From: Rhizobiaceae bacterium
GTDB lineage: Bacteria; Pseudomonadota; Alphaproteobacteria; Rhizobiales; Rhizobiaceae
Direction of reading: 5' to 3'
NCBI GenBank assembly: GCA_016742175.1
Contig: JACVCH010000001.1
Span: 310,001-374,000, forward strand
Length of the DNA stretch: 64,000 nucleotides
The translations under genes were made by a program, and so were the position numbers. Of the stretch, positions 25,066 to 45,299 are shown in pieces. The stretch's first letter is position 1. Each line of letters starts with the position of its first letter. The notes under the pieces were generated by a model. The model searched no databases. It worked only from the letters and a program-made list of their open reading frames with translations, and had not been told where the DNA came from.

Positions 25066-25149
25066 CTGCGGAAAATGGCGGGGCTTCTTTGGCAGGTCAA
25101 CGTGTCGCTCTTTGCGCTGGGTTTCTGGGTGGAACACATCGGGTCCAGA

Positions 25150-27709: not shown

Positions 27710-28923
27710 CGCCCTTTCCGCCCCGCCACAAAGTCGCCCGCGACGGCCCCCCGCAATTTCGCGTCGCACATGAAATCGATCGCCGTCATCGCCATCGACT
27801 TGGCGCTGTCGACGAGCGCGTCCATGCCCGCATCGGAGGCCGCGCCGCGGGCAAAGTCCAGCGTGTGGAACTCCGTGCCGCGCGGCATGGCCTGGATCAT
27901 CGGGTGGATCGCCGGAACGAGATGGCTGACATTGCCGAAATCGGTGCTCGCCGCAAAGCCGAACGGCTGGTCGGCCATCTCGTCGAAGTTCCGACCGAGC
28001 CGTTCGGCGTTCGATCGATAGGCCTGCGCCAGCGGCCAGTTGGTGACGAGTTCGTGGTAGTCGTTCTCGTCCCAGGCGATGTCGACGCTCGCACCGGCGG
28101 CGAGTGCGCCGGCCTCGAGGCACGCGTTGAGGCGGGCGCGCATGTCTTCCAGCATGATCCGGTCCGGTGCGCGGATGACGAATTCGCCGACCGTGCGCTC
28201 GGGGATGACGTTGGTCGCGACGCCGCCCTCGGTGATGATCGCGTGGATGCGGCAGCCATGGGACAATTGCTGGCGCCAGGCGGCGATCGCATTGTAGGCA
28301 GTGACCAGCGCGTCGAGCGCGTTGATGCCGTGTTCGGGCCCGGCGGCGGCGTGGGAGGGGCGTCCGTGAAAGACGGCGCGGGCGGCGGCTCGCGCGATGA
28401 TCGGGAAGGTCGGCAGGTTGCGGTCGGCCGGATGCACCATCATTGCGCAGTCGAGGCCCTCGAACGCGCCCTTGCGCGCCAGGATGATCTTGCCGCCGCC
28501 GCTTTCTTCCGCCGGCGTGCCGATGAAGCGGACGCGGCCAGGCAGGTCGGCGCCAAGATCGGCGAGCGCGAGCGCCGCGCCCATTGCGGCAGTGCCGATG
28601 ATGTTGTGCCCGCAGGCATGGCCGATCTCCGGCAGCGCGTCATATTCGCCGACGAGGCCGACGCAGGGGAGGTTGGCCGGGCCGATGTCGCAGCGGATTG
28701 CGGTTTCCATGCCGAAGGCGGGGTGGTTGACGATGTGTCCTGCAGCCCGAAGATGCGAGGCGAGGAGCCCGCTTGCGTGGCGTTCGGTGAACGCGACCTC
28801 GGGATTGCGGTGAATGTCGAGCGACACGGAAACCAGTTCGTCGCGCCGCGCATCGACGTTTTCGCAGACCTTGGCCTTGAGCCGCGCGACCCGTGAATCC
28901 TGCTCCTCAGTCCTCATTTCCAT
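27706..28923 (-). CDS. M20-family amidohydrolase (ACY1L2/AbgB-like)
   Basis: A 405-residue dinuclear-metal amidohydrolase. Metal ligands are visible in GEYDALPEIGHACGHN (Cys104/His106), Glu139-140 in TPAEESGGGK, and a C-terminal His in the FHTLDFARG region. The family cleaves N-acyl amino acids, p-aminobenzoyl-glutamate and IAA conjugates. Followed by crotonase and acyl-CoA ligase genes, it may release a free acid that is then CoA-activated. The start at 28923 follows GAGG; ATG 28917 is an alternative. Confidence 0.86.
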   Translation of the reverse strand: MEMRTEEQDSRVARLKAKVCENVDARRDELVSVSLDIHRNPEVAFTERHASGLLASHLRAAGHIVNHPAFGMETAIRCDIGPANLPCVGLVGEYDALPEIGHACGHNIIGTAAMGAALALADLGADLPGRVRFIGTPAEESGGGKIILARKGAFEGLDCAMMVHPADRNLPTFPIIARAAARAVFHGRPSHAAAGPEHGINALDALVTAYNAIAAWRQQLSHGCRIHAIITEGGVATNVIPERTVGEFVIRAPDRIMLEDMRARLNACLEAGALAAGASVDIAWDENDYHELVTNWPLAQAYRSNAERLGRNFDEMADQPFGFAASTDFGNVSHLVPAIHPMIQAMPRGTEFHTLDFARGAASDAGMDALVDSAKSMAMTAIDFMCDAKLRGAVAGDFVAGRKGR

Positions 28924-28989
28924 GCGCACCTCGCTTCCCTGCGGTTTCGTCCGGCGGTGCCGATCGCTTGCGAAAAGACGTCGCTGCCT

Positions 28990-29108
28990 GCTTGACAATG
29001 ACGTTACGTTATCTGCAACATGCACAATGCGCAAAATAATTTATGTGCAAAAAGCATACAAAAAAGTGGAGGCGTGATTTGGCTCCGATCGGGCGAGGCG
29101 ACACGGTG
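28990..29108. promoter_or_regulatory. Divergent promoter region with a MarR-type operator candidate
   Basis: AT-rich stretch between the M20 and marR genes. It contains TTGACA at 28992-28997 and an imperfect 22-base palindrome TGCGCA-N10-TGTGCA at 29028-29049, with a further TGCACA at 29021-29026. This spacing suits a MarR dimer regulating both directions. No clean -10 element is identifiable at the canonical distance, so the promoter itself is tentative. Confidence 0.45.
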
Positions 29109-30640: not shown

Positions 30641-32332
30641 ATGAAGATTGATTTTTCGCCGGACCTCATCCTCTTCGGCGGGAAGATCGTCACGGTCGAC
30701 GCCGACTTCTCGGTCCATGAGGCCGTCGCGGTCTATGACGGGAAGATCGTCGCGGTCGGCGGTTCGGCCGACGTCAAGGCGCTGGCCGGTCCGCGCACGA
30801 GGATGACGGATCTGGAAGGCAAGTGCGTCGTTCCCGGCCAGTACGACAACCATGTCCACTTCATGCTCGCCGGGCTCGATGCGCTCGGCTCTCGCGCCAA
30901 GGTCAACATCGCAACGCTGCCCTCCATCGAGGACATCCTTTCGGCCATTGCCGAACGCGTCGCAGTGACCCCGAAGGGCCAGTGGATCGGCACGTCCTGC
31001 ATGTATCGTGGCGCGCTCAAGGAGGGACGTTTCCCGAACCGCGAGGATCTCGACCGCGTCGCGCCCGACCATCCCGTCTATATCTTCCAGTCCGGCAAGA
31101 ACGTCATCTGCAACAGCTACGCGCTGAACATCGCGAAGATCGACGAGACGACGCCCGAGCCGGTAGAGCCGGAAGGCTGGATCGCGCGTGACGCGTCGGG
31201 CCGGCCGACCGGGCACCTGATCGCCGGCGGTGCCGACATGGCGCGCCAGGCATGGTGGAAGCACGAGGGACTGCCACGCAAGAAGTGGGATTTCCTCTAT
31301 TTCGACAAGGAAACGCAGATCGCGGCCATCGAGGCGCAAAGCAGCATCTATCACGCCTGCGGCATCGTCGGCGTGCGCGACATGGGCGTCTCGATCGACG
31401 AGCTGGACGCCTATATCGAGGCCGACCGCCGGGGGCTCCTCAAGATACGCACCGACATCATCCTCGGCCTGCCGATCCGCTACATGACCAATGACGAGGT
31501 GCTGAACGCCGTCGACAGCTATTTCGGCCCGAAGCAGCATGTCGGCAGCCCGATGCTGCGCATAGGCGGCATCAAGCTCGTCGCCGTCAATGATGGCTGG
31601 TGGGCCTACTCGCCCGAGAAACTGCGCTTCCTGATCACCGAATTGAACAGGCGCGGCTGGAACATGGCGATCCACGTCAATACGGGCGGCGGCGAGGAGC
31701 CGGCGGAGGTCGTTCTCAGCGCGCTCGAGGAAGCCGACCGCGACCTGCCGATCGACGGGCGCCGCTTCACCTTCGAGCATGGGTTCGGGCTGAACCGCCC
31801 CGACCATATCGCTCGCGCGAAGAAGCTCGGCATCATCTTCGGCGCCAACCCGCTGCTCGCCTATTACGCGTCGGCGCGCTCCTTGCGCATGAACGAGATC
31901 ATGACGCAGGTGCGCATCGCCAAGCTGACCGAAGACGATCCGTGGAAGCGGACCGTCCGCGACTGGGGAATGCCGCTCAAGGACTGGTTCGACGCCGGTC
32001 TCGTCGTCAGCGGCGGCACCGACAATCCGGCCGTCGTCTACGATGTCACCCAGCCTTTCCTGTGCCAGTATTCGGCGCTGACGGGCAACACGCTGGCCGG
32101 CGTTCTGATGCCCGGCCAGGAAGCGACGCGCGAGCAGATGCTCCGGATGTTCACCATCAACAACGCCTATTCGCGGTGGCAGGAAGACATTCTGGGCTCG
32201 ATCGAGCCGGGCAAGCATGCCGATTTCGTGGTCGTTGACCGCGACATCCTCGAATGCGCCGCCGAGGACGTCAAGGATTTGCAGATCCTGCAAACCTATG
32301 TCGGCGGCGATCTCGTCCACGACCGGATGTGA
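30641..32332 (+). CDS. YtcJ-type metal-dependent amidohydrolase
   Basis: A 563-residue amidohydrolase-3 family enzyme (TIM-barrel hydrolase with a small beta sandwich). Metal-binding HxH is NHVHF (about 70-74). Later elements are AIHVNTGGGEEP, TFEHGFGLNRPDH and SGGTDNPAVVYDVTQPF with the catalytic Asp. The substrate of this family is often an N-acyl amide or ring amide and cannot be read from sequence. It follows the CobW gene by 57 bases and precedes the Mo-hydroxylase by 16, so it belongs to the same operon. Confidence 0.87.
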   Translation: MKIDFSPDLILFGGKIVTVDADFSVHEAVAVYDGKIVAVGGSADVKALAGPRTRMTDLEGKCVVPGQYDNHVHFMLAGLDALGSRAKVNIATLPSIEDILSAIAERVAVTPKGQWIGTSCMYRGALKEGRFPNREDLDRVAPDHPVYIFQSGKNVICNSYALNIAKIDETTPEPVEPEGWIARDASGRPTGHLIAGGADMARQAWWKHEGLPRKKWDFLYFDKETQIAAIEAQSSIYHACGIVGVRDMGVSIDELDAYIEADRRGLLKIRTDIILGLPIRYMTNDEVLNAVDSYFGPKQHVGSPMLRIGGIKLVAVNDGWWAYSPEKLRFLITELNRRGWNMAIHVNTGGGEEPAEVVLSALEEADRDLPIDGRRFTFEHGFGLNRPDHIARAKKLGIIFGANPLLAYYASARSLRMNEIMTQVRIAKLTEDDPWKRTVRDWGMPLKDWFDAGLVVSGGTDNPAVVYDVTQPFLCQYSALTGNTLAGVLMPGQEATREQMLRMFTINNAYSRWQEDILGSIEPGKHADFVVVDRDILECAAEDVKDLQILQTYVGGDLVHDRM

Positions 32333-32348
32333 GGGGCAGGGGCGGGCT

Positions 32349-32807
32349 ATGGTCGACATGTCGCTCAGCATCAACGGTCGGGTCGAACACTATCGGGTGA
32401 CGACGGGCGAGATGCTCATCGACATCCTGCGCCGATCAGGTCTGACCGGCACAAAGGATGGCTGCCGGCGCGGCGAATGCGGCGCCTGCACCGTGCTCGT
32501 CGGCGGGCGCGCGGTCCTATCCTGCCTGACCTTTGCGCAAGCCGTCTCCGCGCCGGTCGAAACGGTCGAGGGGCTTGCCGGCGAAGCGACTGCCTTTCGC
32601 GAGGCGCTTGCCGATCTCGGTGGTTTCCAGTGTGGTTACTGCACCTCCGGCATGGTGGTGCGGGCGATCTCGCTGATCCGCGAGGGACTTCAGGACGACG
32701 ACGGCGAACTGCGCCATCGCATGGCGGGGAACCTGTGCCGCTGCACCGGCTATCAGGGAATTTTGAACGCGCTGCGGGTCGCCGCAGGCGCGCAGGAGGT
32801 CGCATGA
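32349..32807 (+). CDS. 2Fe-2S subunit of xanthine dehydrogenase-family hydroxylase
   Basis: A 152-residue small subunit with both clusters complete: plant-type Cys39-x4-Cys44-x2-Cys47-x11-Cys59 and the helical domain Cys95-x2-Cys98 plus Cys130/Cys132. It carries electrons from the molybdenum site to FAD. No Tat signal is visible, so the enzyme is cytoplasmic, unlike E. coli PaoABC. The next gene's start overlaps its stop (ATGA). Confidence 0.94.
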   Translation: MVDMSLSINGRVEHYRVTTGEMLIDILRRSGLTGTKDGCRRGECGACTVLVGGRAVLSCLTFAQAVSAPVETVEGLAGEATAFREALADLGGFQCGYCTSGMVVRAISLIREGLQDDDGELRHRMAGNLCRCTGYQGILNALRVAAGAQEVA

Positions 32808-35800
32808 ACCTGCGCGCGCCCGATCCGGCCATCACGCAATTGCCTGCAATCCGCCATCCCGAATGGGAGGCGCGCACGACCGGCGCCATCGCCTATGCGC
32901 GCGACATCTTCCCGGACGGCATGCTGGTCGGGCGCATCCTGCGCAGTCCGCACGCCCATGCGCGGATCGTCGCCATCGACGTGACGGCCGCGCGCCGCGC
33001 GCCCGGCGTCGCCGCCGTCCTGACCGACGCCGACATGGGGGGCAGGAGCTACCGCGACTACGGCCAGGGCGACCGCCCGCCGCTGGCGCGGGGCCGCGTT
33101 TCCTTCTTCGGGCAGGAAATCGCGGTGGTCGCGGCCGAGACCGAGGAACAGGCCGACGCCGCGCTCGCCCTGATCGAGGTGACCTACGAAATCCTCGCAT
33201 CGGCAACCACGCTTGCCGAAGCCACCGCCCCGAATGCTGCAGCGGCGTATCCCGAGCGCGCGCCGGACAATGTGGCCACCCGCGCCGACCGCGAATTCGG
33301 CAACCTTTCGGCGGCACGTGCGCGTGCGCCGCATACTGCCCGCGCGCGCTATACCTATGGCATCCAGGCCCACGCCTGCATGGAGCCGCAGTCGACCGTC
33401 GCGCAATGGCACGAAGCGAGCGGCGTCCTCGACATCTGGGCGCCGACACAGTCGCCGCGCAACGTGCGTGGCGAGATCGCGCACATGCTCGGGCTCGAAC
33501 CCGACAAAGTGCGGCTGCACCGGGTCGCGGTCGGTGGTGACTTCGGCTCGCGGGTGAAGGCATCCGACATCGAGGTTCTCGCCGGTGCGCTCGCGATCGC
33601 GGCTGGTCGGCCGGTCGGTATCCGCCTCTCGCGCGCCGACGAATTCGCCTTCAACAAGCGCCAGCACGGGTCCGAGATCGATCTCGCGACCGGCTATGAC
33701 GATGAGGGCAACATCGCCTGGCGCGCCGCTGATACGACGATCGAGAACGGCGCGTTCATCCATGGCGGGTCGAACATGATGAACTACGCGTCGATCCTGA
33801 TGGGCTCGCAATATCGGCTGGAAGGCGCCGTGATGCGCGGCCGCTCCATCTATACGAACCGGCGTCCCGGCGGCGCATTCCGCGGAGCCGGCGGACCGCA
33901 GGCGGCCTTCGCGATCGAATCCCAGATGGACGAGATCGCCGGCCAGCTCGGCATGGACCCGATCGATCTGCGGCTGCGCAACCTCAACCGGACCGGCGAC
34001 ACCACCATCACAGGATGGGAAATCGCTTCGTCGCACGCGGCCGAATGCCTGATGGAGGTACGCAAGCGGCTGGGTTGGGACGCCGCTCAGGCACTGGCCA
34101 GTTCGGGGCGCGGGGTCGGCATAGCGCTTGCCATGCATGTCTCGGGCGCGATCGTTGCGCCGGCCACGGGGCGTGCCGAGGCGGTGGTCGAAATTGGCCA
34201 CAATGGCGGCATCACGCTCTTCAGCGGCTGCGCCGATCCGGGCACCGGCGAATATGCCGTGATCGCTCAGCTCTGCGCACAGGAGCTTGGCGTCGCCGCC
34301 GAAGACATTCTGGTCGAAGCGATGGACACCGCGACGACGCCCTATGATCCAGGTGCGGGATCGAGCCGTGGCACGATGATCACCGGCGGCGCGGTTCTTG
34401 CCGCCAGCCGTGAACTGGCCGACCTCTTGCGCGGCGAGGCTGCCGGCCGGTTCGGTTGCGATCCGGCGCAAATCTTGCTCTCCGGCGGCGTCGCGAGCTT
34501 CGGCGGCCGGAGCGTGTCTCTCGGCGAGCTTGCCGCCGGCCATCCGGACAGCGCCGCCGGCGTGTTGCGGGTTCATCGCGAGACCGTCGTCGAGACGCCT
34601 GTCGTGCCGATGACGCATGAGGATTCGGCTGTCGGCAATCTCTCGCCAGCCTACAGTTTCGCCGTCCACGGCGTCGAGGTCGAGGTCGACCGCGAAACCG
34701 GCGCGGTCAAGGTGCTGCGCGTCGTCGCGGCGCATGACGCTGGAACCGTCGTCAATCCGGTCGGCGCGGATGGGCAGGTCGTCGGCGGTGTGGTGATGGG
34801 CCTTGGCGCCGCGCTCGGCGAACAGCTTCTCTATCTCGACGGTCGCCCGCTGGTGACCGGTTATGGCGACTACCCCATGCCGCGCACGACCGAGGCGCCG
34901 CCGGTCGAGGTCGTCTTCGTGGGCGACGCATCGCCGCGCGGCCCGCTCGGCGCGAAGTCCATCTCCGAAGTGGCGCTGATGCCGATTGCCGCAGCAGTTG
35001 CCAATGCGGTTGCGCACGCGACCGGGATCCGCGTGCGCAGCCTGCCGATCACGCCCGACAAGATCATCGGCGCCGGCCCTGGCCCCCGCATCGCCAGCCT
35101 CTGGGGCAGGCCGGATCGCTGGTGGTCGGCAGCGGTGCGCCGCGCCTATCCGACCGGGCTTTTCTGGGCCCTGGACCGCTGGGGACCGCGTCGCGGAGGC
35201 GGCAGTCTTTCGCCGAACGGCCGACGCCCCGGAAAGATAGAGAACCATGTCTTCCCCGCCACGAGCAGGGATGCCGTGGCCGCCCTGCTGGGGCACCATG
35301 CGGCCCGGCCGGCAGGCGGCGCGACGGATCTGGTCGTGGCACGGGAACAGGGCCTGTGCCCAGCAACGACGATCGTCGCGCTGACCTCCTGCCCGGATTT
35401 GCGGGCTTGCGCTGCCGACGCCGACGGCACCCTCGTGATCGGCGCGGCGGCGACGCTGCGCGAGACCGCAGAGGCGCTGCGTACGCTCGGCCAGACGGGC
35501 GATCTTGCCCTGGCCGAGACGATTGGCGCGATCGCCACGCCGCAGATCCGCGAGATGGCGACCGTCGCCGGCAATCTTTGCCAGGACAAACGCTGCTGGT
35601 TCTATCGCAACGGGTTCGACTGCTTCAAGCGCGCCGGCGCCGGGCGGCCCTGCTATGCGGTCGTCGGCGACCATCGCTACTTCCACGCGGTTCTCGGCGC
35701 TGGGCGCTGCCAGGCCATCACGCCGTCGGACCTTGCGACGACGCTGACCGCGCTCGAGGCCATCGTCGTCGTCGAGGACAGGGCAGGGCAGCGCCAGGTC

Positions 35801-36226
35801 GCGATGGGCGATTTCTATCGTGGTCCGGGCGAGCCGGCGTTGGCCGAAGGCGAAATCGTTCATTCGATCCGCATTCCGGCCGCGGCCCGGATGTCGTCCG
35901 TCAGCTTCCGCAAGCTTACCTTGACGAGCGACGGCTTTGCGATCGTCTCGGCCTGCACGCGGCTCGAGCGCGACGGCGAGGGACGCATCATAAAGTGCCG
36001 GATCGTGCTCGGCGGCATCGCCAACACGCCGTTCAGGGCGCGTCGTTCGGAGGCGCTCGTGGCGGGTCGTCTCCAGCACGGCGTGAATGTCGCCGAGGCG
36101 GCAAACGCCTGGGCGATCGATGCGCACCCGCTCGCAAACAATGGATGGAAGATCGAGGCGGCGATCGGCGTTTTGCGCCAGTCGCTTCAGGCAGCCCTCG
36201 ACCAGCCTTACGGACCCGCCGGCTGA
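32804..36226 (+). CDS. Fused molybdopterin and FAD subunit of xanthine dehydrogenase-family hydroxylase
   Basis: One uninterrupted 1140-residue chain. Residues 1 to about 770 are the molybdenum large subunit (EWEARTTGAIAYARDI, EPQSTVAQW, GGDFGSR, RRPGGAFRGAGGPQAAFAIE and the C-terminal GPLGAKSISEVAL with the catalytic Glu). After a linker, from about 813, an FAD-binding subunit begins (PAGGATDLVV, TVAGNLCQDKRC). The FAD part has Cys931, 940, 950 and 969, the pattern of the extra 4Fe-4S cluster seen in 4-hydroxybenzoyl-CoA reductase beta and PaoB. The enzyme hydroxylates an N-heterocycle or aldehyde; substrate unknown. Confidence 0.9.
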   Translation: MNLRAPDPAITQLPAIRHPEWEARTTGAIAYARDIFPDGMLVGRILRSPHAHARIVAIDVTAARRAPGVAAVLTDADMGGRSYRDYGQGDRPPLARGRVSFFGQEIAVVAAETEEQADAALALIEVTYEILASATTLAEATAPNAAAAYPERAPDNVATRADREFGNLSAARARAPHTARARYTYGIQAHACMEPQSTVAQWHEASGVLDIWAPTQSPRNVRGEIAHMLGLEPDKVRLHRVAVGGDFGSRVKASDIEVLAGALAIAAGRPVGIRLSRADEFAFNKRQHGSEIDLATGYDDEGNIAWRAADTTIENGAFIHGGSNMMNYASILMGSQYRLEGAVMRGRSIYTNRRPGGAFRGAGGPQAAFAIESQMDEIAGQLGMDPIDLRLRNLNRTGDTTITGWEIASSHAAECLMEVRKRLGWDAAQALASSGRGVGIALAMHVSGAIVAPATGRAEAVVEIGHNGGITLFSGCADPGTGEYAVIAQLCAQELGVAAEDILVEAMDTATTPYDPGAGSSRGTMITGGAVLAASRELADLLRGEAAGRFGCDPAQILLSGGVASFGGRSVSLGELAAGHPDSAAGVLRVHRETVVETPVVPMTHEDSAVGNLSPAYSFAVHGVEVEVDRETGAVKVLRVVAAHDAGTVVNPVGADGQVVGGVVMGLGAALGEQLLYLDGRPLVTGYGDYPMPRTTEAPPVEVVFVGDASPRGPLGAKSISEVALMPIAAAVANAVAHATGIRVRSLPITPDKIIGAGPGPRIASLWGRPDRWWSAAVRRAYPTGLFWALDRWGPRRGGGSLSPNGRRPGKIENHVFPATSRDAVAALLGHHAARPAGGATDLVVAREQGLCPATTIVALTSCPDLRACAADADGTLVIGAAATLRETAEALRTLGQTGDLALAETIGAIATPQIREMATVAGNLCQDKRCWFYRNGFDCFKRAGAGRPCYAVVGDHRYFHAVLGAGRCQAITPSDLATTLTALEAIVVVEDRAGQRQVAMGDFYRGPGEPALAEGEIVHSIRIPAAARMSSVSFRKLTLTSDGFAIVSACTRLERDGEGRIIKCRIVLGGIANTPFRARRSEALVAGRLQHGVNVAEAANAWAIDAHPLANNGWKIEAAIGVLRQSLQAALDQPYGPAG

Positions 36227-36297
36227 CAAGGTGGGACGTCATGCGTCGCAAGACGATTTGGACTGTGGAACGGACAACAAACCAATGGGGAAATGAG

Positions 36298-37314
36298 ATG
36301 GACACCCGATTCTACGCATCAGCCGCCGCCGCTTTGTCGCTTCTGGCCACGACTTTCGCGGCCCAGGCCCAGACGACCCTCACCCTCGAGACCTATGCAG
36401 GGCCGAAGCATGCGGTCAACGCCGCCGGCCTTGATATTTGGGCCAAGCAGGTCGAGGAGGCCAGCGGCGGCGATCTGAAGATCAACATCACCTATCCGCC
36501 GGTCGATCCGCGCGATCTCATGGACCGCGTGCGCACCGGCATCGCCGACATTGCCTGGATGACGCACGGCTACACGACCGGACGCTTCGTCTACACCGAC
36601 ATGATCGAACTGCCCGGCAATGGCGGTACGGCCGAAGAGGCGTCGAAGGCCTACTGGAACGTCTATACGGACGTCGTCGGCAACGAGGAACATCGCGGCG
36701 TCACGCCGCTGGCGCTCTTCACCCACGGGCCGGGCATGATCCACACCAGCAAGCCGATCGAGAGCGGCGACGACTTCAAGGGATTGCGCATTCGCACCGG
36801 CGGCGGCGTCCAGGCGGCGATCGCCAACGGGCTCGAACTCGTCACGCTTTCGGCGCCGGTGACGCAGGCGCAGGAAATGCTCTCGCAGGGCGTAGCCGAC
36901 GGAGTGATGTTCTCGATCGAGACGATCGCATCGTTCAACCTGACCGACCTCGTTCCGCACCACTACCACTTTCCGGGCAATCTCTACGGCTCGAGCATGG
37001 CCATCATCATCAACTCCGACAAGCTCGAAGGGCTGACGCAGGAACAGAAAGACGCTCTGTGGAGCGTGTCCGGCGAACATCTGTCCGGCCTGATCGGGTC
37101 GGCCTGGGACGGCGCGGACAAGAAGGCGATCGAGACCATCGGGGAAGGCGCGGTAACGACGATGGAAGGCGATGTCCTCGCCAAGGTCGAAGCCGCGACC
37201 GCCGGCCTCGACGAAGCCTGGATCGAACGGGCGAGCGAAGCCGGGCTCGAAGATCCCGCCGGCGTGCTTGCCCGCCTGCGTGAGGAAATCAAGGCGCAGT
37301 CGAAGGGCGAATAG
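36298..37314 (+). CDS. TRAP transporter solute-binding protein (first system)
   Basis: Periplasmic DctP-family binding protein of 338 residues. It has a signal peptide (cleavage near FAAQAQ), the organic-acid-binding arginine region GLRIRTGGGVQAAIANG, and the family's ADIAWMTHGYTTGRF segment. GGGGAAA precedes the ATG; an in-frame ATG at 36241 has no comparable site. It feeds the two permease genes that follow, and linkage to the Mo-hydroxylase suggests it imports the pathway substrate. Confidence 0.92.
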   Translation: MDTRFYASAAAALSLLATTFAAQAQTTLTLETYAGPKHAVNAAGLDIWAKQVEEASGGDLKINITYPPVDPRDLMDRVRTGIADIAWMTHGYTTGRFVYTDMIELPGNGGTAEEASKAYWNVYTDVVGNEEHRGVTPLALFTHGPGMIHTSKPIESGDDFKGLRIRTGGGVQAAIANGLELVTLSAPVTQAQEMLSQGVADGVMFSIETIASFNLTDLVPHHYHFPGNLYGSSMAIIINSDKLEGLTQEQKDALWSVSGEHLSGLIGSAWDGADKKAIETIGEGAVTTMEGDVLAKVEAATAGLDEAWIERASEAGLEDPAGVLARLREEIKAQSKGE

Positions 37315-37317
37315 ACC

Positions 37318-37842
37318 ATGAGCGACACCCCTCCGCCCCGCCCCGAGCGCCGCCAGGACATTCTCGAGCGCATTGCCGGCGGGGCGGCGGGCATTCTTCT
37401 GGCCGCGATGATGATGGTCACGGTCATTGACGTCGTCGGGCGCTACATCCTGAACGTTCCCTTCCCCGGCGCCTTCGAGATCACGCAGATGCTGATGGCG
37501 GCGATCGTGTTTGCCGGGCTTCCGCATGTGTCGAAGCGGGAAAACCACATCACGATCGACCTTCTCGACCCGGTGACGCCGAAAGCGGCGGTGCCGCTTC
37601 GCAACCTGGTCGTCAACCTTCTCTGCGCGGTCTGTTTCGCTCTTTTTTCCTGGCGGCTTTTCGGCCTCGCGCAGGAGGCGCTCGAATTCGGCGACGTGAC
37701 GCAGTATCTGGGCTTTCCCCGCGCGCCGATCATCTTCTTCGGCTCCACGCTCTGCGCGATTACCGCCATCATCCATCTCGGACTGGCCTTCAATGTGCTG
37801 CGCGCACGCGTCGACACGGACATTCAGGGGGCAGGGCTATGA
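37318..37842 (+). CDS. TRAP transporter small permease (DctQ)
   Basis: A 174-residue protein with four membrane helices and the DctQ pattern VIDVVGRYILNVPFPGAFEITQMLMAAIVFAGLPHVSKRENHITIDLL. Starts 3 bases after the binding-protein stop and overlaps the large-permease start by ATGA. Confidence 0.93.
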   Translation: MSDTPPPRPERRQDILERIAGGAAGILLAAMMMVTVIDVVGRYILNVPFPGAFEITQMLMAAIVFAGLPHVSKRENHITIDLLDPVTPKAAVPLRNLVVNLLCAVCFALFSWRLFGLAQEALEFGDVTQYLGFPRAPIIFFGSTLCAITAIIHLGLAFNVLRARVDTDIQGAGL

Positions 37843-39146
37843 TACCCGCAGCGATCGGTTTCTGCGTCGTCATCTTCATGGTTTTCGCGCGGGTGCCGAT
37901 CGGGGTCGCGATGGCGCTGGCCGGCTTCTTCGGCTTTGCCATTCTCGTCGACTTCATGCCGGCCTTGGCGCTCGTCGGCCTTGTGGCGCGGACGACCGTC
38001 GAATCCTATGAACTCTCGGTCGTGCCGCTTTTCATCCTGATGGGCAATTTCGTCAGCCGGGCAGGGATTTCCGGCGAGCTCTATGCCGCCGCATATGGCT
38101 TCGTCGGGCATCGCAAGGGCGGGCTTGCCATGAGCACGATCGTCGCCTGCGGCGGCTTCAGCGCGATCTGCGGGTCGAGCCTTGCGACTGCGGCGACCAT
38201 GTCGCGCGTGGCCATGCCGCCGATGCGCAAGTACGGCTACTCCGACGGCCTCGCCGCCGCCTCGATCGCAGCCGGCGGCACGCTCGGCATCCTGATCCCG
38301 CCAAGCGTCATTCTGGTGCTCTACGGCATCATGACCCAGACCGACATCCGCTCGCTTTTCGCCGCGGGCATGGTTCCCGGGCTGCTCGGCATCCTGATCT
38401 ACCTGCTGACCATCCGCATCATCGTCTGGTGGAAACCCGAAAGCGGCCCGGCCGGCGCGCGTATGCCCTATTCGGAACGATTGGCGGCCCTGCGCGGCGT
38501 CTGGCCGATGATCATGCTGTTCGTGCTGGTGATCGGCGGCATCTATGCAGGCATCTTCACCGCGACGGAATCGGCGGGCATCGGTGCGTTCGGCGCATTC
38601 CTCTACGCAGTGCTGCGCGGCCGCATCGACTTCAAGGAGGTGGGCGAAATCCTGATCGACACGGCAGTGACGACGGCAGCGCTCTTCCTGGTTCTGATCG
38701 GCGCGATGATCTTCGCGAATTTCGTCAATCACACCGGCATGCCGCGCGAGCTCGCCGCCTTCGTCGTCGAGCGAGACCTCGCGCCCTATACGGTGCTGCT
38801 GGTCATCCTCGGCATCTACGTGCTTCTCGGCTGCGTTTTCGAGAGCATGTCGATGCTGCTCCTGACGATTCCGGTCTTCTCCGTCCTCATCACCTCGCTC
38901 GACTTCGGCATGTCGCCGCAGGAGACGCTCGTCTGGTTCGGTATCATGGTGGTCGTCGTCACGGAGATCAGTCTCCTGACGCCGCCGATCGGCATGAACG
39001 TCTTCACCATCAGCGCGATGCTGCCGGACGTGAAGACGGCGACGATCTTCAAGGGCGTGACGCCGTTCTGGGTCGCCGATATGTGCCGACTCGGGCTCAT
39101 CGTGTTCATTCCGGCCATCTCGCTGTTCCTCCCGTCGATCATTTGA
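37839..39146 (+). CDS. TRAP transporter large permease (DctM)
   Basis: A 435-residue inner-membrane protein with about twelve spans. Family signatures include ICGSSLATAATMSRVAMPPMRKYGYSDGLAAASIAAGGTLGILIPPS and the terminal LTPPIGMNVFTI. It drives sodium-coupled uptake of the ligand held by the binding protein, and ends the first rightward transcription run. Confidence 0.93.
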   Translation: MIPAAIGFCVVIFMVFARVPIGVAMALAGFFGFAILVDFMPALALVGLVARTTVESYELSVVPLFILMGNFVSRAGISGELYAAAYGFVGHRKGGLAMSTIVACGGFSAICGSSLATAATMSRVAMPPMRKYGYSDGLAAASIAAGGTLGILIPPSVILVLYGIMTQTDIRSLFAAGMVPGLLGILIYLLTIRIIVWWKPESGPAGARMPYSERLAALRGVWPMIMLFVLVIGGIYAGIFTATESAGIGAFGAFLYAVLRGRIDFKEVGEILIDTAVTTAALFLVLIGAMIFANFVNHTGMPRELAAFVVERDLAPYTVLLVILGIYVLLGCVFESMSMLLLTIPVFSVLITSLDFGMSPQETLVWFGIMVVVVTEISLLTPPIGMNVFTISAMLPDVKTATIFKGVTPFWVADMCRLGLIVFIPAISLFLPSII

Positions 39147-39240: not shown

Positions 39241-39810
39241 ATGTCGTCCTTGCCGAAAGACGCGGAAGTCCGCAGGATCGGACGGCAGATCCGTCTTCTT
39301 CGCGAACGGGCGGGACAGTCGATCGCGCAGCTCTCGCGCGGGGCGGGCCTTTCCGAACGGGCTGTTCGCGACCTCGAGGCGGGACGCACCAATCCCAGCC
39401 TGGCAACGGTCGTCGCGGTCGTCGATGTCCTCGGGGCCAGTCTCGACGAACTGATCGCGGCTGCCCGCGAGACGGGCATCGTTTCAAATTACACGCAGGC
39501 GATCGGCACAAGTGAAACGTCGGTCGACTTGACCCGGTCGCTGCCAGAACCGCGAATGCGCGCGCGCATCATCGTACTGGACGGGGAGGGTTGCGTCGAT
39601 CTGCCGACCACCGCCGTGTTCGGGCACGTGCTTGGCGACAACGTCGTCGTCTCTCTCGACGGCGAGGAGACGGTGCTGCGCCGCGGCGACAGTTTTCATG
39701 CGGGCGCGGGTGTGCTCGCAGGGTGGCGCGGCCAAAGCTCCTCGAGCCGGCTGCTCGTGGTCGAAACCGCTGACGACAACGGCGTGCACACCAAATTGCA
39801 GGGCAGGTAG
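39241..39810 (+). CDS. XRE-family regulator with C-terminal cupin (first copy)
   Basis: A 189-residue protein with an N-terminal helix-turn-helix (about 12-68: LRERAGQSIAQLSRGAGLSERAVRDLEAGRTNPSLATV) and a cupin-like sensing domain (about 110-185: FGHVLGDNVVVSLDGEETVLRRGDSFHAGAGV). Such proteins bind a small ligand directly. It opens the HyuAB operon, 4 bases before hyuA, and probably autoregulates it. Confidence 0.87.
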   Translation: MSSLPKDAEVRRIGRQIRLLRERAGQSIAQLSRGAGLSERAVRDLEAGRTNPSLATVVAVVDVLGASLDELIAAARETGIVSNYTQAIGTSETSVDLTRSLPEPRMRARIIVLDGEGCVDLPTTAVFGHVLGDNVVVSLDGEETVLRRGDSFHAGAGVLAGWRGQSSSSRLLVVETADDNGVHTKLQGR

Positions 39811-39814: not shown

Positions 39815-41929
39815 ATGAGCGAGACGACCTATATCGTGGCGACCGATGTCGGCGGCACCTGCACCGACACCATCATCATCGCGTCGACGGGCGAGATCCA
39901 TATCGGCAAGGCGCTGTCGACGCCGCCCGATTTCGCGACCGGCGTTCTGAACTCGATCGAATCGGCAGCCGAGATCATGGGTGTGCCGCGCCGGGACGTC
40001 CTCGCACGCACGACGCTTTTCGTGCACGGCTCGACGGTGGTCGACAACACCGTCCTGACGCGCGACGGCGCGCCGACCGGCCTGATCGCCACGCAGGGCT
40101 TCGAGGACACGCTGCTCGTCACCCGCGGCGCCTACGGCCGCTGGTCGGGCCTGACCGAGGACGGGATCAAGAATCCGGTCCGCACCGACCGCGCCGCCCC
40201 GCTGGTCGCGACCGGCGCGATCCGTGGCGTCGGCGAGCGGATCGATTGCGACGGCGACATCGTAGAACCGCTCGATCTGGCGGCCGCCGAGAGCGCCGTA
40301 CGCTATCTGGTCGAGGACAAGAAGGTCGAGGCGATCGCCGTGTCCTTCCTCTGGTCCTTCTTCAATCCGGCGCATGAACGCGCCGTGCGCGACCTGATCG
40401 AGCGGATCGCGCCGCAGGTCTATGTGACGCTGTCGAGCGACATCGCGCCGGTGCCCGGCGAATATGAGCGCACGTCGACGGCGGTGATCAACGCGTATGC
40501 GGGACGCGTGACGCGTGACTATCTGCGCTCGCTCGAGGCTCTGCTCGCCGAGCACGGCTATCGCGGCCAGACCATGGTGATGCAGGGCTATGGCGGCCTC
40601 CTACCCGCATCCGAATCCGGTGAGCGCGCGGTCGGCATGATCGAATGCGGGCCGGCGGCCGGCGTCATCGGTGCCAAGTTTCTCGGCGACCTGATGGGCG
40701 ACACCGAGATCATCGCCGCCGACATGGGCGGCACGACCTTCAAGGTCGGCGTCATCCAGGACGGCGAGCTCGACTATGCCCGTGAGCCGATGGTCGACCG
40801 TTTCCACTATGTCGCGCCGAAGATCGACGTCGTGTCGATTGGCGCCGGCGGCGGCAGCATCGTCCAGCTCGATCCCAAGACCCGGCTCCCGACCGTCGGG
40901 CCGCGTTCGGCCGGCTCGCGTCCGGGTCCGATCTGCTACGGGCTCGGCGGCACGGAGCCGACGCTGACCGATGTGATGCTCCTGATCGGCTACATGGAGC
41001 CGAGCCACTTCCTGCGCGGCTCGATGACGCTCGACGCCGACAACACGCGGCGCATCTTCAAGGAGAAGATCGCCGACCCGCTCGGCGTGTCCGTCGAGGA
41101 GGCGGCGATCGGCATCTATCGCATAGCGGCGGCGCAGATCACCGACCTCATCCGCACGATCACGGTCGAGCGTGGCCTCGATCCGCGCGATTTCGTGCTG
41201 CATGCGTTCGGCGGCACCTGCGGCATGCTGGCCTCGGCCTTCGGCGAGGAACTGGCCGTGCGGCGCATCGTCATTCCCTATACGGCGTCGGTGAACTGCG
41301 CCTTCGGGCTGGTGACGGCGGATGTGCGCCACGAATATTCGACCACGACGACGCTGGCTTCCGACGTCGATCCGCAGGAGGTCAACGCGATCTTCGAGCC
41401 GCTGATCGACCAGGCGCGCAAGCAGCTCGAGGCCGAAGGGTTTTCCGGCGAAGCGACGCGGTTCGACTGGTCGGTCGACTTGCGCTATCGCCGCCAGGTT
41501 CATGAGGTGACGACGCCCGTGCGCGCCGAAACGCCGCTGGACACGGCGGGGCTCGCTGGTCTGATCGACGATTTCGAAAGCCTCTATGAGCGCAAATTCG
41601 GCAAGGGGTCGGCCTATCGGGAAGCGGGCATCGAGATGACGATGTTCCGCTTGACCGCAAGCGGACTGATGCAGCGTCCGCAATTGCCTGTCGAGCCGGA
41701 AGGCGAGGCGGCGTGCGACGGCGCGCGGATCGGCCGCCGGCCGATCTTCGTCGAAGCGCGCGGCAAACTCGTCGAGGCCGACATCTACGATTTCGCCCGC
41801 CTGTCGCCGGGCAATCGGTTCAAGGGACCAGCCGTGATCCACACGCCGATCACCACGATCGCGGTGCAGGACGGCCAGACCGCCCGAATGGACGGCTACC
41901 GCAACATCGTTCTCGAGATGGAGGTGTAA
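39815..41929 (+). CDS. hyuA: Hydantoinase/oxoprolinase A subunit (HyuA-like)
   Basis: A 704-residue subunit of the ATP-dependent hydantoinase, oxoprolinase and acetone carboxylase superfamily. It has the actin-like ATPase start ATDVGGTCTDTIII, a second nucleotide-binding region AADMGGTTFKVGVI, and the GGGSIVQLDPKTRLPTVGPRSAGSRPGPICYGLGG segment typical of HyuA. It phosphorylates or activates the substrate for the B subunit. Chemistry may be ring hydrolysis or carboxylation; the small gamma-like partner argues for considering both. A GGGCAGG site precedes the ATG. Confidence 0.9.
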   Translation: MSETTYIVATDVGGTCTDTIIIASTGEIHIGKALSTPPDFATGVLNSIESAAEIMGVPRRDVLARTTLFVHGSTVVDNTVLTRDGAPTGLIATQGFEDTLLVTRGAYGRWSGLTEDGIKNPVRTDRAAPLVATGAIRGVGERIDCDGDIVEPLDLAAAESAVRYLVEDKKVEAIAVSFLWSFFNPAHERAVRDLIERIAPQVYVTLSSDIAPVPGEYERTSTAVINAYAGRVTRDYLRSLEALLAEHGYRGQTMVMQGYGGLLPASESGERAVGMIECGPAAGVIGAKFLGDLMGDTEIIAADMGGTTFKVGVIQDGELDYAREPMVDRFHYVAPKIDVVSIGAGGGSIVQLDPKTRLPTVGPRSAGSRPGPICYGLGGTEPTLTDVMLLIGYMEPSHFLRGSMTLDADNTRRIFKEKIADPLGVSVEEAAIGIYRIAAAQITDLIRTITVERGLDPRDFVLHAFGGTCGMLASAFGEELAVRRIVIPYTASVNCAFGLVTADVRHEYSTTTTLASDVDPQEVNAIFEPLIDQARKQLEAEGFSGEATRFDWSVDLRYRRQVHEVTTPVRAETPLDTAGLAGLIDDFESLYERKFGKGSAYREAGIEMTMFRLTASGLMQRPQLPVEPEGEAACDGARIGRRPIFVEARGKLVEADIYDFARLSPGNRFKGPAVIHTPITTIAVQDGQTARMDGYRNIVLEMEV

Positions 41930-41932
41930 GCC

Positions 41933-43735
41933 ATGGACCCGATGACCTTCTCCATCATCCGCCATCGGCTTTTCCGCATCATCGACGAGGCGGTAATCAC
42001 GCTCAAGCACGTGTCGGGCAGCGCGATCACCAATGAGGGTCACGACCTCATGGTGTCGCTCTACAGGGCCGACGGCTCGCTTCTGATGGGCGGGGTCGGC
42101 TTCCTGCATCACCTGACGAGTGCGGCCGAGGCCTGCAAGTCGATCATCCGCCGCTTCGAGGGACGCATCCGCGAAGGCGACGTGTTCCTGCTCAACGATC
42201 CCTATACGGCCGCGCTCCACACCTCCGACATCTATCTCGTCGCGCCGATCCATTTCGAGGGCAAGCTGATCGCCTGGAGCGCCTGCTTCGTCCATGTCTA
42301 CGACATCGGCGCGATGAATCCCGGCGGCTTCAGCCCGCAATCGGTCGACATCTACACCGAGGGCTTCTCCTCGCCGGGCATCAAGATAGTCGACCAGGGC
42401 GAGATGGTGCAGGACGTGGTCGACACGATCCTGAACATGGTGCGCTCGCCCGAGATGGTCATGCTCGACCTGCGCTCGATGATCGCCTGCAACAACGTGG
42501 CGCGCGAACGCATGCAGGCGCTGGCGGCGAAATACGGCTCCGATACGGTCGATGCGGCCGGGTCCGAATTGATCTCGCAGTCCGAGACGCTGCTGCGGGC
42601 GCGGCTGCAGGAGCTCCCGAACGGGAGTTGGCAGTCGCGCCAATATCTCGACGTCAATGGCGAGACGGCGACGGTTCGGCTGACGATGACCAAGACCGGC
42701 GACCGCCTGGTCTTCGACTTCACCGGGTCGAGCGAACAAAGTCGGCATGCCATCAACTGCACGAAATGGGCTTCTCTCGGGGGCCTGTTCGCGCCGCTCT
42801 TCCCGCTTCTCTGCTACGACATTACGTGGAACGAGGGCGTGATCCGCCCGGTCGAGATGATCGCGCCCGAGGGTTCGATCGTGAACTGCACGCGGCCGGC
42901 GCCGGTTTCCGTGGCGACGGTTGCGGCGATCCAGTCGGTCAACAACGCCGCCTGCGCCACCATCGGCAAGATGCTGGCAGCGAGCGACCGCTATCGAGGT
43001 CAGGCGACGACGGTCTGGCACGCCAACCACTTCGCCATCTTCAAGTTCGGCCGCAACCAGAAGGGCGGCCAGTCGATCGGCATCTTCACCGAAACCTTCG
43101 CGGGAGCGGGCGGCGCCCGGTCCTTTGCCGACGGCGTCGACATCGGCGGCGAAATCCCAAACCCGATCTCGCGCATGGCCAATGTCGAGACGGTCGAGGC
43201 GAACTTTCCGATCCGCTATCTTTTCCGGCGGCGCATGAAGGATTCAGGCGGGCCGGGTCTCTGGCGCGGCGGCAGCGGCGGCGAGCTTGCCGTCGTTCCA
43301 CACAAGGCGCCCGATGGCGGCATTCACTACGTGATTTCAGGCAAGGGCGCGCGCCATCCGATGAGCGACGGCCTTGCCGGCGGCTTCCCCGGCGCTCCGA
43401 ACAAATATGCCTGGGTAAAGAGCGAAGACGGGGCGGATGTGGTTCCGGAAGATGCGGCAGCAGGCGGCGATCCGGTGTCGTGGGGCGTGTTCCCGCTGAT
43501 GGGCAAGGATGCGCTCTATGTGCGCTGGAACGGCGGTGGCGGGTTCGGCGACCCATTGGAGCGCACGCCCGATCATGTCGTCGCCGATATCGGCAACGAT
43601 CTCGTCAGCGTCGAGGCCGCGCGCGATGTCTATGGCGTGGCGGTCGATGGGAAGGGCGCGCTCGATGCGCAGGCGACGCAGGATTTGCGCAGCCGGCGCC
43701 GCGCTGCACGGATCGGCAGGGAGGCCGCGCGATGA
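41933..43735 (+). CDS. hyuB: Hydantoinase/oxoprolinase B subunit (HyuB-like)
   Basis: A 600-residue B subunit that pairs with HyuA 3 bases upstream. Conserved parts include FSIIRHRLFRIIDEAVITLKHVSGS, DVFLLNDPYTAALHTSDIYLVAPI, NPGGFSPQS and the C-terminal GGPGLWRGGSGGELAVV / NGGGGFGDPLERTP. Metal-binding Asp/His residues of the family lie in the LNDPY...HTSD segment. It completes the ATP-dependent enzyme. Confidence 0.9.
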   Translation: MDPMTFSIIRHRLFRIIDEAVITLKHVSGSAITNEGHDLMVSLYRADGSLLMGGVGFLHHLTSAAEACKSIIRRFEGRIREGDVFLLNDPYTAALHTSDIYLVAPIHFEGKLIAWSACFVHVYDIGAMNPGGFSPQSVDIYTEGFSSPGIKIVDQGEMVQDVVDTILNMVRSPEMVMLDLRSMIACNNVARERMQALAAKYGSDTVDAAGSELISQSETLLRARLQELPNGSWQSRQYLDVNGETATVRLTMTKTGDRLVFDFTGSSEQSRHAINCTKWASLGGLFAPLFPLLCYDITWNEGVIRPVEMIAPEGSIVNCTRPAPVSVATVAAIQSVNNAACATIGKMLAASDRYRGQATTVWHANHFAIFKFGRNQKGGQSIGIFTETFAGAGGARSFADGVDIGGEIPNPISRMANVETVEANFPIRYLFRRRMKDSGGPGLWRGGSGGELAVVPHKAPDGGIHYVISGKGARHPMSDGLAGGFPGAPNKYAWVKSEDGADVVPEDAAAGGDPVSWGVFPLMGKDALYVRWNGGGGFGDPLERTPDHVVADIGNDLVSVEAARDVYGVAVDGKGALDAQATQDLRSRRRAARIGREAAR

Positions 43736-44010
43736 CCGACATCAGATCCGTCTCGCCGACGCTGGTTCAAAAAGCCGGCCAGATCGCCTGTCGCGCCTGC
43801 GGTCACGAGCTGGCGGCGGCCGGTGAGGGGTGGAAGGAGCACGCGGTGCTCGACGAAAAGCCGCTCGGCGATGCAGGCGGCGCGATGTTCAGGAGCGAGG
43901 GCAACGTCCTCCTGCGCCGCTTCTACTGTCCTTCCTGCGGCACCACGCTCGACGCCGAGACGGCCTTGCCGGGAGAGCCTTTCCTCATCGACCGTGTCGA
44001 CTGGTCCTGA
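43732..44010 (+). CDS. Acetone carboxylase gamma-like zinc-ribbon subunit
   Basis: A 92-residue protein with Cys20-x2-Cys23 (CRACG) and Cys66-x2-Cys69 (CPSCG), a zinc ribbon. The C-terminal FYCPSCGTTLDAETALPGEPF segment resembles the acetone carboxylase gamma family (AcxC), though AcxC is longer. Its start overlaps the hyuB stop (ATGA), so it is most likely a third subunit of the HyuAB enzyme. Confidence 0.75.
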   Translation: MTDIRSVSPTLVQKAGQIACRACGHELAAAGEGWKEHAVLDEKPLGDAGGAMFRSEGNVLLRRFYCPSCGTTLDAETALPGEPFLIDRVDWS

Positions 44011-44014
44011 GGTC

Positions 44015-44617
44015 ATGACGAACGCGCGCGACACGCTCAAGCCGGAACTTGCGGAAGCGGGCGAGACGCTCGGCCAGCGGCTGCGCTTCCTGCGTCGCGG
44101 CCGCGGCTTCAGCATTGCCGATCTCGCGCGTGCTGCCGCCGTCCCGGCGAGCACGATCAGCAAGATCGAGAATGGCCTCCTCAATCCAAGCCTCGTCCAC
44201 GCGATCAACCTGGCTTCCGCGCTCGACGCCAATCTGGGTTTTCTCGTCGACCGCTCGCGCACCCGCCACGCGCGCTCGTCCGTGGTGCGCCGGGCGCAGC
44301 GCGGGCGGCGCGACTTTCCCGAAATGTCGATGGTTCTTGAGGACCTGAACATCGGCTTCGTTCCGGGCGTGCTGGAGGCCCGCATCGGCACGATCAGCCC
44401 CGGCGCCCATTCCGGCTCAGAGTTCATGAGCCATCCCGGCGAGGAACTCGTCCACGTCCTCTCGGGCGCGGTCGTCTTCGACCTCGACGGCGTCGAGCAT
44501 CGTCTCGCCGAAGGGGATTCGCTTCATTTCAAATGCGACACGCCGCATCGCTGGATGAACCACGGGCAGGGCACGGCGGTCCTGCTTTGGGTCTTCTCCG
44601 ACGGCCTGTCTTTCTAG
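44015..44617 (+). CDS. XRE-family regulator with C-terminal cupin (second copy)
   Basis: A 200-residue protein with a helix-turn-helix (LGQRLRFLRRGRGFSIADLARAAAVPASTISKIENGLLNPSL) at about 19-65 and a well-formed cupin (about 120-195: GEELVHVLSGAVVFDLDGVEHRLAEGDSLHFKCDTPHRWMNHG), whose His residues could bind metal. It is a different subgroup from the first XRE gene of the operon. It starts 4 bases after the gamma-like gene. Confidence 0.9.
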   Translation: MTNARDTLKPELAEAGETLGQRLRFLRRGRGFSIADLARAAAVPASTISKIENGLLNPSLVHAINLASALDANLGFLVDRSRTRHARSSVVRRAQRGRRDFPEMSMVLEDLNIGFVPGVLEARIGTISPGAHSGSEFMSHPGEELVHVLSGAVVFDLDGVEHRLAEGDSLHFKCDTPHRWMNHGQGTAVLLWVFSDGLSF

Positions 44618-44627
44618 GAGTCTCGAC

Positions 44628-45299
44628 ATGATCAGCCAGCACATCATCGACCGGGTCGTCGCAAGGCGCGGCCAGCTTCATCTTTTTGACAGCCTCGATC
44701 CGGCGCGGACCGCGATGGTCGTGATCGACATGCAGAAGACGTTCTGCGAGCCGGGTGCGCCGGCGGAGGTGCCGGCGTCGCGCGACATCATCGAGCCGAT
44801 CAACCGGCTGGCCGCCGGCCTTCGCGCCGCCGGCGGCACGGTCATCTGGTGCACCCATGCCAATGTCGGCGTCGGAGCCACCAGCGACTGGCGGAACTTC
44901 TTCGACCATTTTGTAGCGGACGATGTTCGCAGCCGAACGATCGAGAGCCTCTCGCCGGGCGGCTCGGGGCAGGAGATTTGGGCGGAGCTCGACGTCCAGG
45001 AAACCGACCTGAAGCTCTTCAAGAACCGGTACAGCGCGCTGGTGCCAGGCTCCTCGCAGCTCGAGCGCATGCTGCGCAGCCTCGACCTCGATACGCTGCT
45101 CATCTGCGGCACCAAGACCAATGTGTGCTGCGAATCCACCGCGCGCGACGCGATGATGATGGATTTCAAGGTCGTCATGGTCTCCGACGGCACCGCAGCC
45201 CTTTCGGACCAGGAGCATCGGGCGAGCCTCGAAAACATCATCCAGCAGTTCGGCGACGTCCTGACCGTCGACGAAATCCTGGAGCGGCTGAAGCCGTGA
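44628..45299 (+). CDS. Isochorismatase-family amidase (RutB/carbamoylsarcosine amidase-like)
   Basis: A 223-residue cysteine hydrolase with the full catalytic triad: Asp34 in VVIDMQKTF, Lys132 in LKLFKNRYSAL and nucleophile Cys167 in GTKTNVCCEST. The segment from Lys132 to Cys167 resembles ureidoacrylate amidase RutB and N-carbamoylsarcosine amidase, which remove a carbamoyl group as CO2 and ammonia. Its place after HyuAB supports deamidation of the ring-opened product. AGGAG precedes the ATG. Confidence 0.85.
   Translation: MISQHIIDRVVARRGQLHLFDSLDPARTAMVVIDMQKTFCEPGAPAEVPASRDIIEPINRLAAGLRAAGGTVIWCTHANVGVGATSDWRNFFDHFVADDVRSRTIESLSPGGSGQEIWAELDVQETDLKLFKNRYSALVPGSSQLERMLRSLDLDTLLICGTKTNVCCESTARDAMMMDFKVVMVSDGTAALSDQEHRASLENIIQQFGDVLTVDEILERLKP

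Follow-up and report, generated by a model that had tools for sequence, protein, structure and literature searches.

Does a HyuA-HyuB pair that carries a gamma-like subunit and lies beside a cysteine hydrolase gene degrade creatinine, open some other cyclic amide, or carboxylate its substrate? The question is raised by a locus in a 64,000-nucleotide stretch of a Rhizobiaceae bacterium (contig JACVCH010000001.1, positions 310,001 to 374,000; hereafter the window), in which a single operon encodes HyuA, HyuB, a 92-residue CxxC/CxxC protein and an isochorismatase-fold hydrolase. The set belongs to the hydantoinase/carboxylase superfamily, and we file it in none of the three named branches. Judging from sequence, we give an about even chance to the reading that HyuA-HyuB-gamma is a one-kinase, bicarbonate-activating, biotin-free carboxylase. 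This reading rests on a site of the acetophenone carboxylase (Apc) alpha' type in the only ATPase subunit, the gamma protein, a tree position outside the branch of gamma-less enzymes, and a nearby CoA ligase gene.

The gene set and its gamma subunit

The operon comprises the following genes (aa, amino acids):

39815..41929, + strand: HyuA, 704 aa, ASKHA-type ATPase (alpha) subunit; Pfam Hydantoinase_A, Hydant_A_N and Hydant_A_C above cut-off
41933..43735, + strand: HyuB, 600 aa, metal-site (beta) subunit; Pfam Hydantoinase_B, 413 bits
43732..44010, + strand: gamma-like protein, 92 aa, Zn-ribbon-like C20xxC23...C66xxC69; Pfam Acetone_carb_G (PF08882), 41 bits, cut-off 21
44015..44617, + strand: the second of two XRE regulators, with a cupin domain; Pfam Cupin_2 65.5 bits, HTH_31 40.7 bits
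44628..45299, + strand: isochorismatase-fold cysteine hydrolase, D34/K132/C167; Pfam Isochorismatase 138 bits

An initial annotation had described this three-gene set with its linked hydrolase, and Pfam places all members above cut-off, with the XRE-cupin gene intervening between gamma and the hydrolase. It had also taken the small protein as a mark of carboxylases, on which Pfam, predicted fold and trees agree. Specifically, the gamma sequence matches the gamma chains of acetone carboxylase (5m45_C, E 1.8e-4) and acetophenone carboxylase (5l9w_C, E 1.9e-4) in the PDB, and all four cysteines align with both. Its AlphaFold2 model (mean predicted local distance difference test score 88.9) has five PDB matches at E<=0.001 (5m45, 5l9w, two in 5svb, and 5svc; TMq, the query-normalised template modelling score, 0.77-0.82), which are exclusively gamma chains of acetone or acetophenone carboxylase. 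PF08882 is matched by 36 of 36 aligned gammas of the clade described below, and the four Cys, W34, K35, E76, P83, L85 and D87 are invariant in these rows. The window gamma is the single PF08882 match genome-wide, against 8 HyuB-type matches; in NCBIfam it scores 21.7 bits against a cut-off of 250. The start of the gamma open reading frame (ORF) overlaps the HyuB stop. A chance ORF was considered and is ruled out by the linkage in 49 of 49 loci, the invariant residues, the PF08882 matches and the predicted carboxylase-gamma fold.

When GTDB genome contigs were scanned with HyuB, 52 loci of the window clade were recovered (68-91% identical); they come from Alpha-, Beta- and Gammaproteobacteria and one metagenome-assembled genome labelled Actinomycetota. 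The gamma gene lies 3' of HyuB in all 49 clade loci whose contig continues beyond HyuB, always on the HyuB strand as in the window; L056, L059 and L063, where the contig ends inside HyuB, were excluded. The initial annotation had named loss of gamma in close relatives as a check, and gamma is missing from none of these 49. The cysteine hydrolase follows gamma in 43 of them and was not found in L027, L035, L038, L044, L057 and L065. Among 61 near relatives, a strong gamma match is confined to the window's own genome; the best HyuB match in the other 60 has 32% identity, and three give weak partial gamma matches (33-42% identity, E 2e-4 to 8e-4). In the 4 same-genus genomes searched, neither gamma nor a HyuB match above 31% identity was found; these genomes lack the entire set. 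HyuB of this type and its gamma therefore occur, or are missing, as a unit. At class level, 9 of 289 genomes, the window's included, hold HyuA at >=59% identity, and the next matches reach at most 42%. The order-, class- and phylum-level searches are samples, from which a part of the intermediate-ranked HyuA matches was fetched.

Further afield, gamma occurs fused to HyuB. Twenty regions with high-scoring HyuA matches were fetched from the class-level search, one of which (L180) is a clade member. In six of the eight best-scoring non-clade regions (L162-L169), gamma is fused to the HyuB C-terminus; L166, among the eight, is cut by the contig end, and L167:5667-7805 encodes a HyuB prolonged at its C-terminus by a CxxC...CxxC segment, which the gamma hidden Markov model (HMM) does not recognise and which is possibly a diverged fused gamma. 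The lower-ranked L171 is also a HyuB-gamma fusion. No gamma match was found in L170, L172-L179 and L181, where the L170 stretch shows no HyuB and L176 extends only 287 bases past it, so that a gamma may have escaped notice in these two; L172:3495-7816 holds one HyuA followed by two neighbouring HyuB-type ORFs. Six more fusion loci (L093-L096, L102, L103) came from an order-level gamma search. Thirteen of the 15 fusion-type loci match the gamma HMM (L165 partially), six of these 13 having gamma by construction. The plasmid collection gave a single match at E<=1e-100, in the haloarchaeon Halorientalis marina, with HyuA 45%, HyuB 49% and a fused gamma 41% identical to the window proteins. This pair (L185:12870-17139) lies near an AMP-binding protein, enoyl-CoA hydratases, MaoC dehydratases and short-chain dehydrogenases/reductases; no homologue of the hydrolase or of the xanthine-dehydrogenase-type (XDH) hydroxylase was found in the fetched stretch at E<=1e-5. 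The stretch also contains IS630-family transposase genes, and inter-domain transfer is possible. Since gamma is a protein of its own in one lineage but part of the HyuB chain in others, it is most simply read as a subunit of the HyuA-HyuB enzyme.

Active sites and phylogenetic position

HyuA carries GSRPGP (GxxPGP), the phosphate-1 motif DVGGTCTD and the phosphate-2 motif DMGGTTFK. The aligned metal ligands of HyuB are D38, H96, D99 and H121, and DHDH is found in 49 of 49 clade rows scored. All superfamily hallmarks as given in PMC5214803, ASKHA ATPase motifs in HyuA and Asp-His-Asp-His in HyuB, are present. According to this paper on the Apc structure, the family has three branches, and gamma is absent from any Hyd complex (hydantoinase, oxoprolinase, caprolactamase). 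The window set does have a gamma, and its tree position is not among the gamma-less enzymes.

The kinase site of HyuA consists of E277, D303 and K310. This E-D-K triad occurs in all 49 clade HyuAs scored (45, the window, L091, L092 and L180; segments of about 500 aa or less, in 7 of 52 clade loci, were skipped) and in Halorientalis marina. In ApcA (5l9w_b), the alpha' subunit of acetophenone carboxylase, the triad recurs at an identical spacing of 26 and 7 (E248, D274, K281), and this ApcA site is tentatively assigned to bicarbonate (PMC5214803). PMC8453981, which names the kinase-site positions, compares Asp302 of the caprolactamase subunit CapA with Lys281 of Apc alpha'; the CapA counterparts of the window triad are N269, D295 and D302. 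Across the scored rows E and K change as a pair, neither being found alone. Two gamma-less HyuAs that group with hydrolases (L128, at G000:C1:9000-24000, and L181) also have E-D-K (GGTTAK), and Asn occupies the third of the aligned metal-ligand positions in the HyuB of L128; these HyuAs may represent a second use of the bicarbonate-type site.

Comparison with the known enzymes sets the window enzyme apart from each. Caprolactamase CapAB of Pseudomonas jessenii (6yra) resembles it in subunit sizes, ATP motifs and all four metal ligands and gives the best NCBIfam and PDB scores, but has no gamma, an N-D-D kinase site and the gene order capB-capA (PMC8453981), as opposed to hyuA-hyuB here. The caprolactamase models NF050156 and NF050157 are not passed (HyuA 530.7 and HyuB 237.3 bits, cut-offs 1000), and no NCBIfam model is passed by HyuA, HyuB or gamma. 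Acetone carboxylase AcxABC (5m45, 5svb) shares alpha, beta and gamma, the gamma gene in last place and the gamma fold. However, its subunits are longer (gamma 168 aa in 5m45_C, 92 aa here), and the 7 Acx-type loci all have V/I-D-D at the kinase site and Glu at the metal where the window HyuB has Asp38. Acetophenone carboxylase (5l9w) shares the gamma fold, the E-D-K of alpha' and a nearby CoA ligase, which in its operon serves the next step (PMC5214803); it differs in having two ATPase subunits (alpha and alpha') plus epsilon, with the gamma gene between those of alpha' and alpha, whereas the operon here has one HyuA with an alpha'-type site and gamma after HyuB. N-methylhydantoinase (7hk5) is alike at the superfamily level but has an M-D-D kinase site, Gln at the aligned fourth metal position and another clade; the pairs grouping with it (L130, L131) lack gamma.

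Trees were built from short searches with SH-like approximate likelihood ratio test (SH-aLRT) support only (given below as numbers) and contain several long branches. They include 16 HyuA and 18 HyuB rows of the clade, no 5-oxoprolinase of proven function, and only such HyuB segments as exceed about 450 aa (3 of 52 dropped). In the 73-row HyuA tree, 17 gamma-less loci, CapA and N-methylhydantoinase 7hk5 (19 rows) fall on one side of a branch with support 99, and the window clade (100), Acx (100) and Apc (99) are each supported. In the 68-row HyuB tree, 17 gamma-less rows (16 loci, L172 twice) with CapB and 7hk5 (19 rows) have support 100, as does the window clade. In both trees the window clade belongs neither to the gamma-less branch nor to the Acx clade (100). 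The initial annotation had asked for such a phylogeny, and the set falls inside no characterised clade sampled. The clade and the fusions group together (95) in a first HyuA tree, are not resolved in the larger one, and are separated, though weakly, by the HyuB tree. Approximately unbiased (AU) tests on a reduced set (27 of 73 HyuA rows, ApcA left out) reject one clade of the window group with N-methylhydantoinase (p 2.5e-7) or with CapA (p 7.9e-6). A joint clade with Acx gives p 0.145 on 73 rows, which is not a rejection, and p 0.022 on 27 rows, a weak one. L130 (G000:C2:152000-168000), a HyuA/HyuB pair of the same genome, groups with 7hk5 at 98 in both trees and, from sequence, would be the genome's better hydantoin or creatinine candidate.

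The cysteine hydrolase and flanking genes

In the cysteine hydrolase, D34, K132 and C167 are each at least 97% conserved over 46 rows. The best PDB scores are 104 bits to 3irv, 65 to YecD, 62 to 3hb7 and 60 to RutB; N-carbamoylsarcosine amidohydrolase 1nba scores 42.5, and the parallel with N-carbamoylsarcosine amidase drawn in the initial annotation is not supported. The Asp, Lys and Cys residues align with those of the ureidoacrylate amidohydrolase RutB (8bkd), which shares the TNVC motif; the NCBIfam score is 79 bits against a cut-off of 378, so the protein is not filed as RutB.

Around the operon lie the following genes:

24730..29034, - strand: divergent block, with an M20 amidohydrolase (27706-29034), a crotonase (about 26888-27700), an AMP-binding CoA ligase (25371-26891) and an ORF (24730-25578) with a sub-threshold EamA match; Pfam
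29534-30583, operon direction: CobW-type metallochaperone GTPase gene
30641-32332: Amidohydro_3 gene, downstream of the CobW-type gene
32217..36226, + strand: XDH-type molybdenum hydroxylase; Pfam; iron-sulphur subunit 32217-32807, molybdenum cofactor and FAD fusion to 36226
36286..39146, + strand: TRAP transporter DctP-DctQ-DctM, upstream; Pfam DctP, DctQ, DctM
39241..39810, + strand: XRE-family helix-turn-helix regulator adjoining HyuA on its upstream side; Pfam HTH_31 48 bits
45345..49846, + strand: BMP-type ABC importer; Pfam Bmp, ABC_tran and BPD_transp_2 twice; binding protein 45345-46301, ATPase 46310-47881, permeases 47878-48921 and about 48900-49846

The upstream XRE regulator has no Pfam cupin match, and the cupin-like look of its C-terminal half was noted by eye only. 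Homologues lie within 20 of 55 clade loci (E<=1e-10), and those of the second, XRE-cupin regulator within 25. A BMP homologue is present in 20 of the 55, and locus L020 keeps DctP-DctQ-DctM upstream of the set in order and strand at 43-59% identity. The CobW-type GTPase might supply metal to HyuB or to the Amidohydro_3 protein.

Across the groups, an XDH homologue was found in 8/55 clade loci (that of L046 of the CO-dehydrogenase type) and 2/15 fusion loci (L094 also of this type), but in 0/17 gamma-less and 0/14 Acx/Apc loci. A CoA-ligase homologue was found in 15/55 clade, 2/15 fusion, 2/7 Apc, 0/7 Acx and 0/17 gamma-less loci. These neighbour counts are indicative, as the sequence per group is unequal (883 kb for the 55 clade loci, 216 kb for the 17 gamma-less ones). 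At E<=1e-10 none of the 7 Acx loci holds a homologue of the hydrolase or of XDH. In L016, L017, L018 and L021, the crotonase (67-72% identity) and the ligase (51-54%) stand after the permeases, which makes them cluster members in those relatives. In NCBIfam, no equivalog above cut-off was found for the XDH, crotonase or BMP proteins; the molybdenum cofactor and FAD fusion stays under every cut-off listed, and the M20 protein passes TIGR01891, a subfamily model only. The CoA ligase is narrowly above TIGR01923 menE, o-succinylbenzoate-CoA ligase (337.0 versus 330.15 bits), and is taken as a probable aryl- or acyl-CoA ligase of menE type rather than one of menaquinone synthesis. From the linked hydroxylase, amidohydrolases and importer we infer that the substrate is a nitrogen-containing small molecule.

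Carboxylation and cyclic-amide hydrolysis

Starting from what is directly observed (the gene set, the homology and predicted fold of gamma, the fixed linkage, the triad, the metal ligands and the tree position), we consider how a carboxylase would work here. HyuA, HyuB and gamma would form an alpha-beta-gamma complex with gamma as a structural Zn-ribbon subunit. At the Glu277/Asp303/Lys310 site of HyuA, ATP and bicarbonate, the probable phosphorylated substrate, would give carboxyphosphate, which would be channelled inward to HyuB and its metal site, Asp38/His96/Asp99/His121. There a small, probably nitrogen-containing substrate would undergo biotin-free net carboxylation. The cysteine hydrolase may then cleave an amide or carbamoyl bond, and the resulting acid may pass to the CoA ligase and crotonase. 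For acetone carboxylase, it is proposed that acetone and bicarbonate share one phosphorylation site, which an internal channel connects to the metal (PMC5543143).

Several observations weigh against carboxylation. The E-K pair is found in 2/17 gamma-less HyuAs (L128, L181), which group with hydrolases, and in just 2/14 fusion-type HyuAs (L096, L169). It is found in 0/7 local Apc alpha'-like subunits, in 0/14 Apc-type subunits overall, and in 0/7 Acx, though acetone carboxylase is a true carboxylase. Because some gamma-less HyuAs have the pair and neither Acx nor the local Apc alpha'-like subunits do, it is not a proven carboxylase mark, and the Apc assignment is itself tentative. The CoA-ligase counts take in distant AMP-binding homologues and unequal flank lengths. 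The linked hydrolase fits ring opening equally. The subunits are hydrolase-sized, and their best NCBIfam scores, below cut-off, are to caprolactamase. Caprolactamase and OplAB need bicarbonate yet hydrolyse lactams, with carboxyphosphate as the proposed intermediate (PMC8453981, PMC11033972).

These points feed the main rival, a gamma-bearing, bicarbonate-assisted cyclic-amide hydrolase that opens an activated lactam, cyclic urea or imide as caprolactamase does, a serious contender that we rate somewhat below an even chance. Its substrate might come from an N-heterocycle through the molybdenum hydroxylase, with the cysteine hydrolase removing carbamoyl or amide nitrogen. The CapA/CapB scores, the four CapB metal ligands kept in HyuB, the bicarbonate dependence of CapAB and OplAB, and the loci shared by the XDH-type hydroxylase and the cysteine hydrolase all favour it. 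Additionally, the 73-row HyuA tree joins the window clade, the gamma-less hydrolases and the fusions apart from Acx and Apc (98), and an isochorismatase-family gene, distant in sequence (HMM score 174), stands beside a HyuB/HyuA pair of this genome that has no gamma (L127:3090-7461), which speaks against an exclusive linkage of the hydrolase to the gamma-bearing set. However, the clade lies outside the branch of the sampled gamma-less enzymes, the AU test on 27 rows rejects a joint clade with CapA or with N-methylhydantoinase, and gamma is kept in every clade locus scored. CoA ligase and crotonase neighbours occur in the window, the four close relatives and the haloarchaeon, and the hydrolase is missing from 6 of 49 loci and the haloarchaeal stretch. 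As the initial annotation held, whether the enzyme is a hydrolase or a carboxylase is not settled by sequence alone, though the evidence leans to carboxylase.

The same annotation had invoked creatinine breakdown, with HyuAB as N-methylhydantoinase and the hydrolase as N-carbamoylsarcosine amidase. Both superfamilies do stand within one operon, but we reject this pathway on the HyuA tree and the AU test on 27 rows. A pair that groups with N-methylhydantoinase lies elsewhere in the genome, the hydrolase is nearer 3irv and RutB than 1nba, and gamma would go unexplained; we leave this reading a very slight probability. An isoenzyme of acetone or other ketone carboxylases would account for the gamma homology, and the AU results for HyuA with Acx (the joint clade stands on 73 rows and is weakly rejected on the reduced set) favour it. 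It is disfavoured by the active-site residues (E-D-K and Asp38 against V/I-D-D and Glu) and the position outside the Acx clade, as well as by the short gamma and the Acx loci free of hydrolase and XDH homologues, and we hold it to be improbable.

Beyond the carboxylase reading, we offer a bolder and rather doubtful proposal, namely that the set represents a fourth branch of the family. A single ATPase subunit with a bicarbonate (alpha'-type) site would make carboxyphosphate. The group carboxylated by it would be an acidic N-H or C-H in a small heterocycle or amide, and the dedicated cysteine hydrolase would cleave the carboxylated amide. Bacteria would then have a biotin-free analogue of the pairing of urea carboxylase with allophanate hydrolase, to which the haloarchaeal set, with its fused gamma, would be related. 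We found no report of a gamma-bearing HyuAB with a cysteine hydrolase in the open-access PMC literature, which is weak evidence of absence.

Hydantoinase-sized subunits with a gamma, separate or fused, and an Apc-alpha'-type site occur in three proteobacterial classes and a haloarchaeal relative, in contrast to the gamma-free Hyd branch as PMC5214803 describes it. The set also bears on whether caprolactamase and OplAB phosphorylate bicarbonate to carboxyphosphate (PMC8453981, PMC11033972), for which the window enzyme would be a smaller test case than Apc. Finally, superfamily-based names such as 'N-methylhydantoinase' and 'N-carbamoylsarcosine amidase' can yield false creatinine pathways. In sponge microbiomes, creatinine degradation has been inferred from N-methylhydantoinase gene counts (PMC6742649), and at least one clade member, L062, comes from a bin named for a sponge, 'Spongia_Bin9'.

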